Shown here piece by piece: positions 22,312 to 27,443 of a stretch of 64,000 nucleotides of DNA. Numbering within the stretch: position 1 is the first letter of the stretch; each line of letters begins with the position of its first letter. Both the position numbers and the translations under genes were made by a program. Below the pieces are notes generated by a model that saw only the letters and a program-made list of their open reading frames with translations, ran no database searches and had not been told where the DNA came from. This stretch comes from Pectinatus cerevisiiphilus (lineage in GTDB: Bacteria; Bacillota; Negativicutes; Selenomonadales; Selenomonadaceae): assembly GCF_004341685.1 (NCBI RefSeq), contig NZ_SMAA01000008.1, positions 1 to 64,000 on the forward strand, given 5' to 3'.

Positions 22312-23436
22312 ATGGAAGGATACGATTCTATTTGGGACATGTATAAGAAGAAAGGCATAAGTCGGCGTAGTTTTATTAAAACTTGTACAGCAATGACCGC
22401 ACTGTTGGGATTGGCTCCGGCAATGCTGCCAGAAGTTGTCAAAGCCGCAGAAAAAAGATTACCTGTAGTTATTTGGCTGCATGGCCATGAATGCACAGGT
22501 TGCAGTGAAGCCTTTTTGCGTTCAGGTGCACCGCTGACATCTGATGTTGTCCTCAATATGATTGCGTTGGAATATGATGATACGCTGGGAGCTGCTTCTG
22601 GGGAACCCTTTGAAAATCATTTACAGGAAATTATGAAAACTTATAAGGGGCAGTACATTTTAGCCGTTGAAGGAGCCGCACCACCTGATCCCAAAGGTGG
22701 TTTTTGTATGGTCGGTGGCCGGTCATTTGTTGAAGAAGTCAAAGAAGCGGCTGCTGGAGCGGCTGCTATTATCGCCTATGGGAGTTGTGCTGCATGGGGC
22801 GGTATACAGGCGGCGCGCCCTAATCCGACGCAGGCGGTATCACTGAATGAAATTATTGATAATAAACATATTGTAAATGTACCGGGTTGTCCTCCTATTC
22901 CTGAAGTAATGACGGGTGTTATTGCCCATTATGCAATGTTTGGTAATTTACCACCGCTTGACAATAGAAATTGTCCTAAGCAGTTCTTTGGTAATCGTAT
23001 ACATGATACATGTTATCGTCGGCCGTTTTTTGATGCGGGTATGTTTGCTAATGATTTCAATGATGCTGGTGCTAGGGCTGGTTGGTGTCTTTATAAACTT
23101 GGCTGCCGGGGACCAGAAACATATGCGTCTTGCGGTAATATGCGTTGGTGGAATGGATTGTCTTATCCTATTCAATCTGGTCATGGCTGCATTGGCTGCA
23201 CAAGTAAGAATTTCTGGGATAATGATCCTTTTTATACAAGACTGCCTGAAGTCGCAGGACTTGGGCTTGGCAATATAGATAAAATAGGTGCTGTCGCAAC
23301 AGGGGCTTTGGCTGTTGGCATAACAGCGCATTTGGCCACATCAGCTGTCCAGAAAAGAAGACGCGATCAAAAGGAATTAGAAGATGAAAAGAAAGCTGCA
23401 GAAGAAGCTGAAAGAATGAGTAGAGGAAAGGATTGA
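22312..23436 (+). CDS. periplasmic uptake NiFe hydrogenase, small subunit (group 1)
   Basis: A 374-residue electron-transfer subunit. A Tat signal with SRRSFIK (about residues 18-24) directs folded export of the dimer, and a C-terminal membrane anchor ends in a charged tail. Three FeS clusters are ligated by conserved Cys/His: HECTGCSEAF, GSCAAWGG and GCPP for the proximal cluster, and HDTCYRR, the WCLYKLGC region and GCIGC for the others. The proximal site has CTGC and WGG, not the extra cysteines of oxygen-tolerant enzymes (CTCC, WGC), so a standard oxygen-sensitive cluster is predicted. GGAGGG precedes the start. It opens the hydrogenase operon. Confidence 0.95.
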   Translation: MEGYDSIWDMYKKKGISRRSFIKTCTAMTALLGLAPAMLPEVVKAAEKRLPVVIWLHGHECTGCSEAFLRSGAPLTSDVVLNMIALEYDDTLGAASGEPFENHLQEIMKTYKGQYILAVEGAAPPDPKGGFCMVGGRSFVEEVKEAAAGAAAIIAYGSCAAWGGIQAARPNPTQAVSLNEIIDNKHIVNVPGCPPIPEVMTGVIAHYAMFGNLPPLDNRNCPKQFFGNRIHDTCYRRPFFDAGMFANDFNDAGARAGWCLYKLGCRGPETYASCGNMRWWNGLSYPIQSGHGCIGCTSKNFWDNDPFYTRLPEVAGLGLGNIDKIGAVATGALAVGITAHLATSAVQKRRRDQKELEDEKKAAEEAERMSRGKD

Positions 23437-23444
23437 GTTTTTTT

Positions 23445-25340
23445 ATGAAAAGAGTTGTGGTAGATCCAGTTACTCGAATAGAGGGGCATTTGCGTTTAGA
23501 GGTTGAAGTCGATGAAGCTTCAGGGAAAGTCAATGACGCACTTTCCAGTGGAACAGCATGGAGAGGTATTGAAACAATAGTAAAAAATCGTGATCCGCGC
23601 GATGTATGGGCTTTTGTACAGCGTATCTGCGGGGTGTGTACCAGTGTCCATGCATTAGCTGCAGTCCGTGCTGTCGAAGATGCACTTGGTATAAGAATAC
23701 CTAAGAATGCACATTATATTCGTAACATCATGGCGGGAACAATAACAGCACATGACCATATAGTACATTTTTATCATCTGCATGCTTTAGACTGGGTAAG
23801 CCCTGTTGAAGCATTGAAAGCAGACCCTAAAGCAACAGCGGCTTTACAGGAAACTGTTTTGGACACATATACTATACCGGTTGAAGATACTGGTAAGTTT
23901 GATTTCAGTGCATATCCAAAGTATTTTCCTAAGGCTACAACGGCTTATTATAAAGAAATTCAAGGTAAAATAAAACAACTTGTTGACAGTAACCAGCTAG
24001 GAATATTTGCGGCTAACTGGTGGGATCATCCTGCATACCAAGTATTGCCACCGGAAGTACATTTGATGGCTGTAGCGCATTATTTGGAAATGCTTGATAA
24101 GCAGCGTGAAATAGTAATTCCCCATGTTATATTTGGCGGCAAGAATCCGCATCCCCATTATGTGGTTGGTGGCATGTCCTGCGCTATCTCCATGAATGAC
24201 ATGAATGCACCAGTTAACAGCCAGCGGCTGGCCGCAGTGGAAACGGCAATTTCTCTGACTGAAGCTGTAGTTAATTATTTTTATGTGCCTGATGCGTTGG
24301 CTATTGCGCATATCCATGCACAAAAAGGCAGTGCTATAGATGGTGGCGGTCTGGCAGGTGTACGTGTAATGGGATTTGGCTCGTATCCTGATGAACCTTT
24401 TGCTGGACATGCTGACTTTGCTTCTGCAGCGCTTGTACGCTGTGATGGTGTAGTAGAAAATTTTGCGCAAGGACTCAATAATGCCCGCTATACGGCATTG
24501 ACAGGTAAAGATCTTGAAGACAGCGCAGTTATAACAGAAAATGCCAAGCATTCTTGGTATGAAAATGATGATGCGCTTCATCCGTGGGATGGGGAAACTA
24601 ATCCTAATTATACGGGTGACAAAAATGGCAATAAAGATAGATGGGAAACCCTTGATAAGGATAATAAATATTCTTGGGTAAAAACACCGAGATGGCGTGG
24701 TAAGGTTTGCGAAGTAGGACCTTTAGCACGGTATATTGTCGTTTATACTAAAATAAAAAAAGGCATTGTCGCACCGACCTGGGCAGAACAAATGATGGTT
24801 AACCAGATTGACCATGTATCTAAGCTGCTCAATCTGCCACCGGAAAAATGGCTGCCATCAACAGCCGGCCGTACTTTAGCCCGTGCCCTTGATGCCCAAG
24901 TGGCAGCGAAAATGGAAAAATATTTCTTTGAAAAATTAGTGGAAAATATAGGTACTGGCGATACTAATATTGCTAATACGCTTAAATGGGAACCGTCTTC
25001 ATGGACTGACGGCGAAATAAAAGGCGTTGGCCTTTATGAAGCACCTCGTGGCTCTTTATCACATTGGATAGTGATTCAGAACAAAAAGGTAAAAAATTAT
25101 CAGGCTGTAGTACCGACAACATGGAATGCTTGCCCACATGATGATGAAGCGGGAAATGGGGCATATGAAATGTCTATGATGGATACGCATGTGGCGGTAC
25201 CTGATAAACCGTTAGAGATTGTGAGAGCCATTCGTTCCTTCGATCCATGCCTTGCTTGTGCGGCGCATGTATATGATAGTAAGAAGAAAACCCTTAGTAT
25301 AGTTAGTACCGATCCATATATAGGGAGTGGTAAAGTATGA
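23445..25340 (+). CDS. periplasmic uptake NiFe hydrogenase, large subunit
   Basis: A 631-residue subunit holding the NiFe(CN)2CO centre. The N-terminal ICGVC (RxCGxC motif) and the C-terminal DPCLACAAH give the four Ni-ligating cysteines. The maturation protease should cut after that His, removing a 23-residue tail, longer than the roughly 15 residues usual in group 1 enzymes. A TTG overlapping the previous stop is in frame, but AGGAAAGG before the ATG at 23445 gives MKRVVVDPVTRIEGH, the typical start. It oxidises hydrogen in the periplasm, with electrons leaving through the small subunit and cytochrome b. All four motifs are intact. Confidence 0.95.
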   Translation: MKRVVVDPVTRIEGHLRLEVEVDEASGKVNDALSSGTAWRGIETIVKNRDPRDVWAFVQRICGVCTSVHALAAVRAVEDALGIRIPKNAHYIRNIMAGTITAHDHIVHFYHLHALDWVSPVEALKADPKATAALQETVLDTYTIPVEDTGKFDFSAYPKYFPKATTAYYKEIQGKIKQLVDSNQLGIFAANWWDHPAYQVLPPEVHLMAVAHYLEMLDKQREIVIPHVIFGGKNPHPHYVVGGMSCAISMNDMNAPVNSQRLAAVETAISLTEAVVNYFYVPDALAIAHIHAQKGSAIDGGGLAGVRVMGFGSYPDEPFAGHADFASAALVRCDGVVENFAQGLNNARYTALTGKDLEDSAVITENAKHSWYENDDALHPWDGETNPNYTGDKNGNKDRWETLDKDNKYSWVKTPRWRGKVCEVGPLARYIVVYTKIKKGIVAPTWAEQMMVNQIDHVSKLLNLPPEKWLPSTAGRTLARALDAQVAAKMEKYFFEKLVENIGTGDTNIANTLKWEPSSWTDGEIKGVGLYEAPRGSLSHWIVIQNKKVKNYQAVVPTTWNACPHDDEAGNGAYEMSMMDTHVAVPDKPLEIVRAIRSFDPCLACAAHVYDSKKKTLSIVSTDPYIGSGKV

Positions 25341-26098
25341 CGGTCAAGGAAAGCCAGTTTATCGAAATATCTATGGACAGTGGCAAGGAAATGCATTTAA
25401 CAAGGTACTATATTTTTAGTCCTTTCCTGCGCATTTTCCACTGGTTGATGGTTGTTTCCATAATAGTTTTGTTTGCCAGCGGTATAGTTATAATGACACC
25501 TATGTCTATGGGAGAAGGACAGTATGTAGTACTGAATAATTGGCATTTGTCAGTTGATTGGATAAGGAATCTTCATTTCGTGGCAGGTTTTGTGTTGACT
25601 GCATCATTCTTATTTAGAATATATGGTTATATAATAAATAAAGGGGACAGACTTTTACCTAATATCTTTCGGATGAAGTTCTGGGATGATCTGGTAGAAG
25701 TAATGATGCATTATTGCCTGCTCAAATATTCGCATAAGCAATTTTTGCGCAACCCGATGGCGCGCATGTCTTATGTGGCAATTTATGGTCTGATCGTAGT
25801 TGAAATGTTGACAGGTTTTGCAATGTATTTTCAGGTGAACCCAAACGGTGTGGGCAGTTTTCTCTTTGGTTGGCTTGTCATTCCGTATGGAGAAATGTTC
25901 CTTCATGTCGTTCACCATATTGTGGCATGGTGTATTTTCCTTTTTGCTGCTATTCATGTATATATGGTAGTACGTGCCGACTTTATGGAACGTGAAGGTG
26001 AAATATCCAGTATGATTTCAGGAACGAAGGTATTGGCTCATTTACCGGATGACATAAATGATATAAGGGATAAACGCGGTAGAATTATTAAAGGATAA
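25337..26098 (+). CDS. NiFe hydrogenase b-type cytochrome
   Basis: A 253-residue protein with four or five membrane helices. The His residues spaced across helices (RIFHWLMV, HFVAGFV, LHVVHHIVAW, AIHVYMVV) are the haem b ligands of the HyaC/HydC family. It links hydrogen oxidation to the menaquinone pool. The start overlaps the large-subunit stop (ATGA), so the two are translationally coupled. The first 20 residues are polar and longer than in some homologues. It completes the membrane-bound respiratory hydrogenase. Confidence 0.93.
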   Translation: MTVKESQFIEISMDSGKEMHLTRYYIFSPFLRIFHWLMVVSIIVLFASGIVIMTPMSMGEGQYVVLNNWHLSVDWIRNLHFVAGFVLTASFLFRIYGYIINKGDRLLPNIFRMKFWDDLVEVMMHYCLLKYSHKQFLRNPMARMSYVAIYGLIVVEMLTGFAMYFQVNPNGVGSFLFGWLVIPYGEMFLHVVHHIVAWCIFLFAAIHVYMVVRADFMEREGEISSMISGTKVLAHLPDDINDIRDKRGRIIKG

Positions 26099-26112: not shown

Positions 26113-26355
26113 ATGTGTTCAACATGCGGTTGCACGGGACATGGACAGGGAACGCAGATTCAATTTTTTGTTACTGGTTATGATGAAAAAAATTCTAAAG
26201 AAGTAGAAGAAAAACTCTTGGGTTTACCTGGCGTATTGTATGTACATATCCATACGCATGACGGAGAAACAACGATAAATTATAATCCCGCCAAAACACG
26301 TTTAAGTGAATTGACAGCTGTTTTTGAACAGAGGGGTCTGCAAGCAGCTATTTAA
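26113..26355 (+). CDS. small Cys/His-rich HMA-like protein, candidate nickel-handling factor
   Basis: An 80-residue protein starting MCSTCGCTGHG (cysteines at 2, 5 and 7, His 10). The CxxCxC start is the same as the high-affinity nickel motif at the N-terminus of E. coli HypB (MCTTCGC). From residue 14 on it reads like a ferredoxin-fold heavy-metal-associated domain (beta-alpha-beta-beta-alpha-beta, EVEEKLLGLPGVLYVHIHTH, then LSELTAVFEQRGL). It lacks that family's CxxC in the first loop but has HxHxH at 45, 47 and 49. AAGGGG precedes the ATG. It lies between the cytochrome and a terminator, before hypA. The HypB gene downstream lacks the motif, so a nickel chaperone or store is my inference. 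I do not recognise a named family. Confidence 0.75.
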   Translation: MCSTCGCTGHGQGTQIQFFVTGYDEKNSKEVEEKLLGLPGVLYVHIHTHDGETTINYNPAKTRLSELTAVFEQRGLQAAI

Positions 26356-26370
26356 GTGAATAATAAGAAT

Positions 26371-26407
26371 AAAAGCTGCTGCAGTATGGGATTGCAGCAG
26401 CTTTTTT
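26371..26407 (+). terminator. intrinsic terminator between the structural and hyp genes
   Basis: A 13-bp perfect stem (26371-26383 with 26393-26405), a 9-nt loop and a six-T run, ending only 18 bases before the hypA start. It would cut most transcripts from the hydrogenase promoter before the maturation genes. The hypA ribosome-binding site (AGGAG at 26414-26418) follows immediately, with no room for a separate promoter. Confidence 0.88.
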
Positions 26408-26424: not shown

Positions 26425-26766
26425 ATGCACGAAATGGCAATGGCACAAGGCGTAATGGAGATCGTAGAGGATTACGCACAAAAAAGTAAGGCAAAAAAAG
26501 TTTGCACTGTGGCTCTTTTAATTGGTGAAATGACAGGGGTAGTTCCTGAATCGTTGGAATTTTGTTTTAAAGCCGTGGCCAAAGGTACTGTTGCTGAGGA
26601 TGCCAAAATAAAACTTACAAATGTGCCGTTGATGGGACATTGTAATAATTGTGGCAATGAATGGCATATTGAAAATTATAACTTTTTTTGTCCGCAGTGC
26701 AGCAGTGCTAAAGTGGATATAATTTCAGGCAGGGAACTACGTGTTGAGTATTTGGAGGTAGATTGA
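26425..26766 (+). CDS. hypA: hydrogenase maturation nickel metallochaperone HypA
   Basis: A 113-residue HypA, which delivers nickel to the hydrogenase large-subunit precursor together with HypB. The N-terminal MHE gives the nickel-binding His2. The zinc site is formed by two CxxC pairs, CNNC and CPQC, near residues 74 and 91. A TTG 15 bases upstream is in frame but lies inside the terminator tail; AGGAG before the ATG at 26425 fixes the start. Its stop overlaps the hypB start (TGATG). It is the first gene of the maturation block. Confidence 0.95.
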   Translation: MHEMAMAQGVMEIVEDYAQKSKAKKVCTVALLIGEMTGVVPESLEFCFKAVAKGTVAEDAKIKLTNVPLMGHCNNCGNEWHIENYNFFCPQCSSAKVDIISGRELRVEYLEVD

Positions 26767-27443
26767 TGGAAGTTCAAGTAATGGAAGATATTTTGGGGAG
26801 CAATGACAAACAGGCTGCCGAAAATAAAAAAATTTTTGATAAATACGGGATTTTGGCACTTAATCTGATCGGCTCACCAGGAGCAGGTAAAACTTCGTTG
26901 CTGGAAAAAACCATAGGTTCATTAAAAGGTTGCATGCGTTTAGCAGTGATAGAAGGGGATTTATTCACGAGTAAGGATGCTGACCGTATAGCAGATAAGG
27001 ATATCCCTGTCATTCAAATAAATACAAGCGGTGGCTGCCATCTGGATGCAATGATGGTGCAAAAAGTCCTTAACAAATTGGATTTAGCAAATTTGGATCT
27101 TATTATTATAGAAAATGTAGGAAATCTTGTGTGTCCCGCGGAATTTAATATTGGAGAAGATGCCAAGGCTGTAGTTTTGAGTATTACCGAAGGCGATGAT
27201 AAACCGCTTAAATATCCGTTGATATTTAAAGAGGCTGCTGTGGCAGTACTCAATAAGATAGATATACTGCCTTTTACTAATTTTGATATGGCAAATGCCA
27301 AACATGATATGAATTGCCTGAACCCCGGAATCAGTATAATCGAAGCCTCCTGCCGTACCGGTGACGGGCTTGAAACATGGTGCAACTGGCTTAAAAATAC
27401 CGTCCAGATAAAAAAAGAACGGATGAAAAAAACTAATGGGTAA
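26766..27443 (+). CDS. hypB: hydrogenase maturation GTPase HypB (lacking the N-terminal nickel motif)
   Basis: A 225-residue SIMIBI-class GTPase needed for nickel insertion. The P-loop GSPGAGKT (about residues 36-43), the EGD switch, GGCHLDAMM with the conserved Cys-His metal site at the dimer interface, ENVGNLVCPA and NKID are all present. The N-terminus (MEVQVMEDILGSNDK) has neither the CxxCGC nickel site of E. coli HypB nor a His-rich stretch. That motif is instead found at the start of the small protein at 26113. The ATG overlaps the hypA stop, and the end overlaps the protease gene by eight bases. Confidence 0.94.
   Translation: MEVQVMEDILGSNDKQAAENKKIFDKYGILALNLIGSPGAGKTSLLEKTIGSLKGCMRLAVIEGDLFTSKDADRIADKDIPVIQINTSGGCHLDAMMVQKVLNKLDLANLDLIIIENVGNLVCPAEFNIGEDAKAVVLSITEGDDKPLKYPLIFKEAAVAVLNKIDILPFTNFDMANAKHDMNCLNPGISIIEASCRTGDGLETWCNWLKNTVQIKKERMKKTNG

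Follow-up and report, generated by a model that had tools for sequence, protein, structure and literature searches.

An 80-residue protein (here p80), encoded in the [NiFe]-hydrogenase locus of Pectinatus cerevisiiphilus, is probably a small, CopZ-derived cytoplasmic carrier or buffer of nickel, made with the hydrogenase structural subunits and holding Ni(II) for HypA and HypB. This reading draws on its fold, its conserved residues, a phylogenetic split within its family, the nickel genes found around it and its co-occurrence with [NiFe] hydrogenase; from these we infer that the metal is nickel, that both candidate sites are used, which way descent ran and which partner receives the nickel.

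Sequence and predicted fold of p80

The window, which is the whole stretch of 64,000 nt analysed here, carries the gene order small subunit, large subunit, cytochrome b, p80, hypA, hypB, protease, hypF, hypC, hypD and hypE. HypC and HypE were recognized from their translations, and the two subunits, the cytochrome, HypA, HypB, the protease, HypF and HypD by family scans. The features considered below are the following.

22312..23436, + strand: [NiFe]-hydrogenase small subunit with Tat signal (TIGR00391, E 2.9e-135)
23433..25340, + strand: [NiFe]-hydrogenase large subunit (PF00374, E 2.4e-184)
25337..26098, + strand: hydrogenase b-type cytochrome, immediately 5' of p80 (TIGR02125, 137 bits, above cut-off)
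26113..26355, + strand: p80, 80-aa CxxCGC and HMA-like protein (ORF, homologues, predicted fold)
26113..26133, + strand: MCSTCGC of p80, candidate metal site of Cys2, Cys5, Cys7 and the N-terminal amine after Met loss (conservation; E. coli HypB spacing)
26152..26349, + strand: HMA-like domain of p80, beta-alpha-beta-beta-alpha-beta, residues 14-79 (AlphaFold2, match to CopZ 2qif)
26245..26265, + strand: HIHTHDG of p80, residues 45-51, beta2-beta3 turn, candidate second metal site (conservation, model strands)
26371..26405, + strand: 15-bp stem-loop followed by a T run, terminator-like, in the gap between p80 and hypA (-22.3 kcal/mol, z -2.84)
26425..26766, + strand: hypA, ATG at 26425, MHE start (TIGR00100, 104.8 bits, above cut-off)
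26766..27443, + strand: hypB without N-terminal CxxCxC, with G-domain CH...C (TIGR00073, 269 bits, above cut-off)

The full sequence of p80 is MCSTCGCTGHGQGTQIQFFVTGYDEKNSKEVEEKLLGLPGVLYVHIHTHDGETTINYNPAKTRLSELTAVFEQRGLQAAI (80 aa), and its closest named relative is found in Pectinatus haikarae (93%). It begins with MCSTCGC, carries HIHTHDG at residues 45-51 and lacks the CxxC of HMA domains. The initial annotation had described just such a protein, with a CxxCxC start and an HMA-like fold in which HxHxH occupies residues 45-49; the reading frame and its conservation confirm the former, and a profile search and the AlphaFold2 fold match the latter. The AlphaFold2 model, built with 40 relatives in the alignment, has a mean pLDDT of 87.5 and consists of E14-21, H25-36, E41-46, E52-57, H64-73 and E77-79. 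Its best structural matches are CopZ (2qif) and CsoZ (6ff1), with Z 12.8 and rmsd 1.3 over 68 residues, in agreement with the profile search, which matches p80 to CopA/CopZ domains; both the ferredoxin-like fold and sequence homology thus place p80 among the HMA proteins. The first ten residues are modelled with low confidence (mean 49), and the Cys tail is predicted to be probably flexible. HIHTHDG falls in the beta2-beta3 turn of the model. In HMA structures this turn and the CxxC loop of the copper chaperones share one end of the domain, so the new site of p80 may stand near the old one.

Against curated models, p80 scores 17.5 bits for Pfam HMA (PF00403; gathering score 24.8), 20.2 bits for NCBIfam CopZ (NF033795; cut-off 91) and 14.2 and 14.7 bits for HypB_prefix_1 and HypB_prefix_2 (NF053667 and NF053668; cut-offs 30 and 35). 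With all HMA-type scores below the curated cut-offs, p80 lies outside every curated Pfam and NCBIfam family scanned. It does possess the defining feature of the HypB prefix, a CxxCxC with Cys2, Cys5 and Cys7 at the N-terminus. The MxCxxC metal site of HMA loop 1 is absent from 100 distinct sequences of the HIH type, to which p80 belongs, and the window protein has GYDEKNSK in its place.

Matches to the wider family, with MC at the N-terminus and CxxC-type sisters included, occur in 145 of 300 Negativicutes genomes. Among the 100 distinct HIH-type sequences M1, C2, C5, G40, V44, H45 and H47 are invariant, and G6 (99%), C7 (99%), G51 (98%), H49 (95%) and D50 (89%) nearly so; conservation on this scale rules out a chance motif. 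The Cys motif of these sequences always starts at residue 2, which is consistent with recruitment of the N-terminal amine as a ligand, as in E. coli HypB. Removal of Met before Cys is expected.

In one genome (G236; L101:7254-7709) p80 is internally deleted, and the remnant MCKECGCGHRERTIHIHS continues in frame into hypA, so that HypA may gain an N-terminal extension that bears CxxCGC. In the genus of the window, p80 lies apart from the hydrogenase operon in one genome (G275; L117, L031), and Pectinatus brassicae (G227; L003, L032) has two copies.

Clades and gene neighbourhoods across Negativicutes

The wider family comprises HIH-type members, members that keep CxxC (16 read) and a few with neither. 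In a tree of 44 rows and 81 columns, in which the root is not fixed and most other forks are unresolved, a 98/93 branch parts the HIH-type members (plus the L036-type and L055, both without HIH) from the CxxC-keeping, CopZ-like rows. A phylum-wide profile search returned mostly ordinary HMA domains of P-type ATPases. MCKxCGC was observed on CxxC-keeping HMA proteins at L048, L049, L054, L057, L061 and L065 (family f25) and at L041, L056 and L059; some have a His-rich C-terminal tail, and their neighbours are copA or unrelated genes.

Nickel genes lie within 4 kb at 66 of 99 HIH-type loci and at none of the 16 CxxC-type loci; about a third of the former (32/99) have no nickel gene at this distance. 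Counted per locus by clade, nickel neighbours occur at 71/104 in the HIH clade versus 0/18 in the CxxC clade. Similarity to the window protein was in part the basis on which the loci were collected, which inflates the share of the hydrogenase arrangement, and the count by host family, grouped by hand from the locus tables, is the fairer one: genes for nickel enzymes or for nickel import neighbour the p80 clade in 10 of the 12 families and the CxxC clade in 0 of 7 (p 0.0007).

The same loci bear on a further possibility, in which p80, like the CopZ proteins to which it is related, would act as a chaperone of copper (or zinc) and afford copper protection in the hydrogenase operon, not nickel delivery. 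CopZ and CsoZ are indeed the closest folds, CxxCxC is able to bind Cu(I) or Zn(II), and copA lies within 4 kb of 4 of the 16 CxxC-type genes, but it does so at 0 of the 99 HIH-type loci, where nickel genes predominate, and the HMA CxxC has been lost in all HIH-type members. Additionally, paralogues with an intact CxxC share some genomes with p80 (G074, G095), so that the copper role may already be filled in these; we consider a copper or zinc role for p80 unlikely.

The arrangement cytochrome-p80-hypA was counted at 49 distinct loci, and HIH-type proteins account for 47 of these. Other settings are also found. At L166, an ABC operon has p80 inserted between its two ATPase genes; the permeases of this operon score above the NCBIfam nickel-permease cut-offs (352 vs 350 and 317.9 vs 300 bits), and its binding protein is NikA-like, below cut-off. 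At L043 it follows a Nik/Opp-type operon and at L045 it is near one; both operons score below the nickel cut-offs and could encode peptide importers. In two families (L044, L055) p80 is directly downstream of hypE. It stands beside LarC at L035, and relatives stand beside a group 22 nickel-pincer isomerase at L036 and L042, in each case convergently and hence without co-transcription. FISINN replaces HIHxH at L036, L039, L040 and L042, all of which lie at most 4 kb from a group 22 nickel-pincer-dependent isomerase. An [FeFe]-hydrogenase operon at L037 (6383-9065), which encodes a short second subunit of the Tat type, has a p80-type gene after its cytochrome b; the genome also carries [NiFe] hydrogenases and LarC. 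Orphan copies in a rumen clade have no nickel gene beside them, and their common neighbours, judged by eye, are a CrcB-like membrane protein, an isochorismatase-like protein and a metallo-hydrolase-like protein.

The stem-loop at 26371-26405 is not listed by a simple terminator scan of the window, so the terminator call is based on folding and on comparison with relatives. Every one of the 28 distinct p80-hypA gaps of at least 35 nt among the relatives contains a strong stem-loop (z -2.2 to -9.5, median -5.0); the stem-loop sequences differ, and a T tail follows many but not all of them. The gap is 1-6 nt in eight Selenomonas-type loci. The stem-loop between p80 and hypA suggests that p80 probably belongs to the structural operon, and in Pectinatus it most likely closes the structural transcript, with lower read-through predicted into the hyp genes. 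The initial annotation had pointed to the placement of p80 between the cytochrome gene and hypA; because of this stem-loop, expression of p80 as one unit with hypA is doubtful in the window.

A further alternative assigns p80 to the cytochrome in the membrane or to electron transfer (heme, iron or assembly) instead of nickel insertion. Its position directly 3' of cytochrome b in almost all hydrogenase loci, even without hypA behind it, the strong stem-loop that parts it from hypA and the single [FeFe]-hydrogenase operon at L037 are in keeping with such a role; yet the Nik-operon, hyp-end and lar-type contexts contain no such cytochrome, the gap to hypA shrinks to a few nucleotides in the Selenomonas-type loci, and an HMA fold with soft ligands suits metal-ion binding, all of which renders a cytochrome-side role decidedly improbable.

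The distribution of p80 also follows that of [NiFe] hydrogenase. Within the window's family, HypB is found in 71 of 72 genomes that have p80, and the remaining one (G258) has a [NiFe] large subunit. Among the 15 genomes without p80, 12 have neither HypB nor a full-length [NiFe] large subunit; as 11 of these 12 belong to one genus (g7), the co-occurrence is weaker than its p of 3e-11 suggests. The other three, including the genome with the p80 remnant described above (G236), keep both HypB and the large subunit, so p80 appears dispensable there. Two genomes (G074, G258) first looked like cases of p80 without [NiFe] hydrogenase, as TIGR00073 found no HypB above cut-off; this was rejected, since the large subunit is present in both. 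Together, the recurrent nickel-gene neighbourhoods and the co-occurrence, both read from genome sequence, support the role in nickel handling that the initial annotation had proposed for p80.

HypB and the origin of the cysteine motif

The HypB of the window starts with MEVQVMEDILGSND and lacks CxxCxC, as had been stated at the outset, with the G-domain CH (GGCHLD) and a Cys further on (NLVCP) both retained. The same is true more widely. Among 83 distinct HypB N-termini read in Negativicutes, genomes without p80 included, none has CxxCxC, and the G-domain CH is kept in 127/127 HypB frames. The MCxxCGC DNA pattern ATGTGYNNNNNNTGYGGNTGY, which is blind to GTG and TTG starts, never fell at a HypB start in 80 Negativicutes genomes, where its matches were HMA proteins of the p80 and CxxC types along with unrelated ORFs; of 30 loci retrieved with the MCxxCGC pattern from 299 Bacillota genomes, none was HypB. 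HypB without the N-terminal region is already known as type 1 (PMC10134865). Because the motif is absent with or without p80, p80 does not track a recent loss, and its absence is a trait of the sampled Negativicutes HypB that gives no sign of relocation from the local protein. No HypB of the E. coli type turned up in the Negativicutes sample, and hence no genome that combines one with p80. Apparent CxxCGC-HMA-HypB fusions, such as the long open frames at L029 (327 aa) and L008 (170 aa), proved to result from read-through 5' of the MC start.

MCxxCGC is likewise the start of the Negativicutes sisters that keep CxxC. The Cys motif thus either predates the association with nickel or is independent of it, and need not derive from HypB; it probably arose within the HMA chaperones and does no more than resemble the HypB site. 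The idea advanced in the initial annotation, that the N-terminal nickel motif of HypB was transferred to, or became, a separate protein that stands in for it functionally with this HypB, has in its favour the identical C2xxC5xC7 spacing and N-terminal placement, a HypB without the motif at all 83 distinct loci read and the weak HypB_prefix matches of p80 (14-15 bits vs cut-offs of 30-35), but it is very improbable given that Negativicutes HypB lacks the motif even where p80 is missing, that copper-type HMA sisters have MCxxCGC, that no fused CxxCGC-HMA-HypB form was seen among the loci read and that copies of p80 also lie within Nik operons and at sites apart from hydrogenase genes.

Proposed nickel carriage and comparison with known systems

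As a nickel carrier, p80 would have descended from CopZ-like copper chaperones with loss of the HMA CxxC, and would offer nickel two candidate sites: C-x-x-C-G-C together with the free amine in the flexible N-terminus, and the HxHxHDG turn on the folded domain. Probably co-produced with the hydrogenase structural subunits, it would most likely capture Ni(II) through the Cys tail (thiolates and amine, planar), the His turn or both, and would then hand it over to HypA or HypB. Importer-linked members, in Nik operons, may take up nickel at the point of entry. Put forward more tentatively, as a possibility, is the broader proposal that p80 represents an undescribed and widespread group of Negativicutes HMA-fold nickel chaperones, formerly of copper, that have lost CxxC, bear a CxxCGC tail and an HxHxH turn, and link import to hydrogenase and nickel-pincer enzymes.

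Compared with CopZ and CsoZ (PF00403; 2qif, 6ff1), p80 shares the beta-alpha-beta-beta-alpha-beta fold over residues 13-80 and homologous sequence, but it has no loop-1 CxxC, adds the N-terminal CxxCGC and the HxHxHDG of the beta2-beta3 turn, and is surrounded by nickel genes and not copA. The HypA/HypB insertion pair, encoded just 3' of p80 in most hydrogenase loci, is its presumed recipient; unlike these, p80 has neither a GTPase nor a zinc-ribbon domain. CooT, which acts in CODH maturation, is also a small accessory protein with a nickel site that involves Cys2 near the N-terminus, and belongs to a different protein family from p80. The high-affinity nickel site of E. coli HypB is formed by Cys2, Cys5 and Cys7 with the N-terminal amine, and its role is described as yet to be elucidated (PMC7055735). 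p80 has the same three cysteines at its extreme N-terminus; it differs in carrying an HMA domain, not a GTPase, and no sequence relation was found outside the motif. SCO4226 of Streptomyces coelicolor, compared by description, resembles p80 in its length of about 80 residues and its ferredoxin-like fold and binds nickel, but does so weakly (10 uM) at His/Asp/Glu sites of a dimer interface and has no CxxCxC (PMC4186839). The described HypA-F set includes no p80 (PMC12134894), and no HMA nickel chaperone in hydrogenase operons was found in the open-licence literature. The HMA fold and the Cys2/Cys5/Cys7 nickel motif are both known; what is new, to judge by the curated families and that literature, is that an HMA family tied to nickel genes combines the two.

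Where HypB has no high-affinity site, a chaperone family of this kind, if real, would supply HypA and HypB with the intracellular nickel source that is otherwise missing. As a separate protein with the Cys2/Cys5/Cys7 arrangement, p80 lets a HypB-type site be tested alone. It would also be a case of the HMA copper-carrier fold switched to another metal, for which paralogues of the copper type, present alongside p80 in some genomes, are natural controls.
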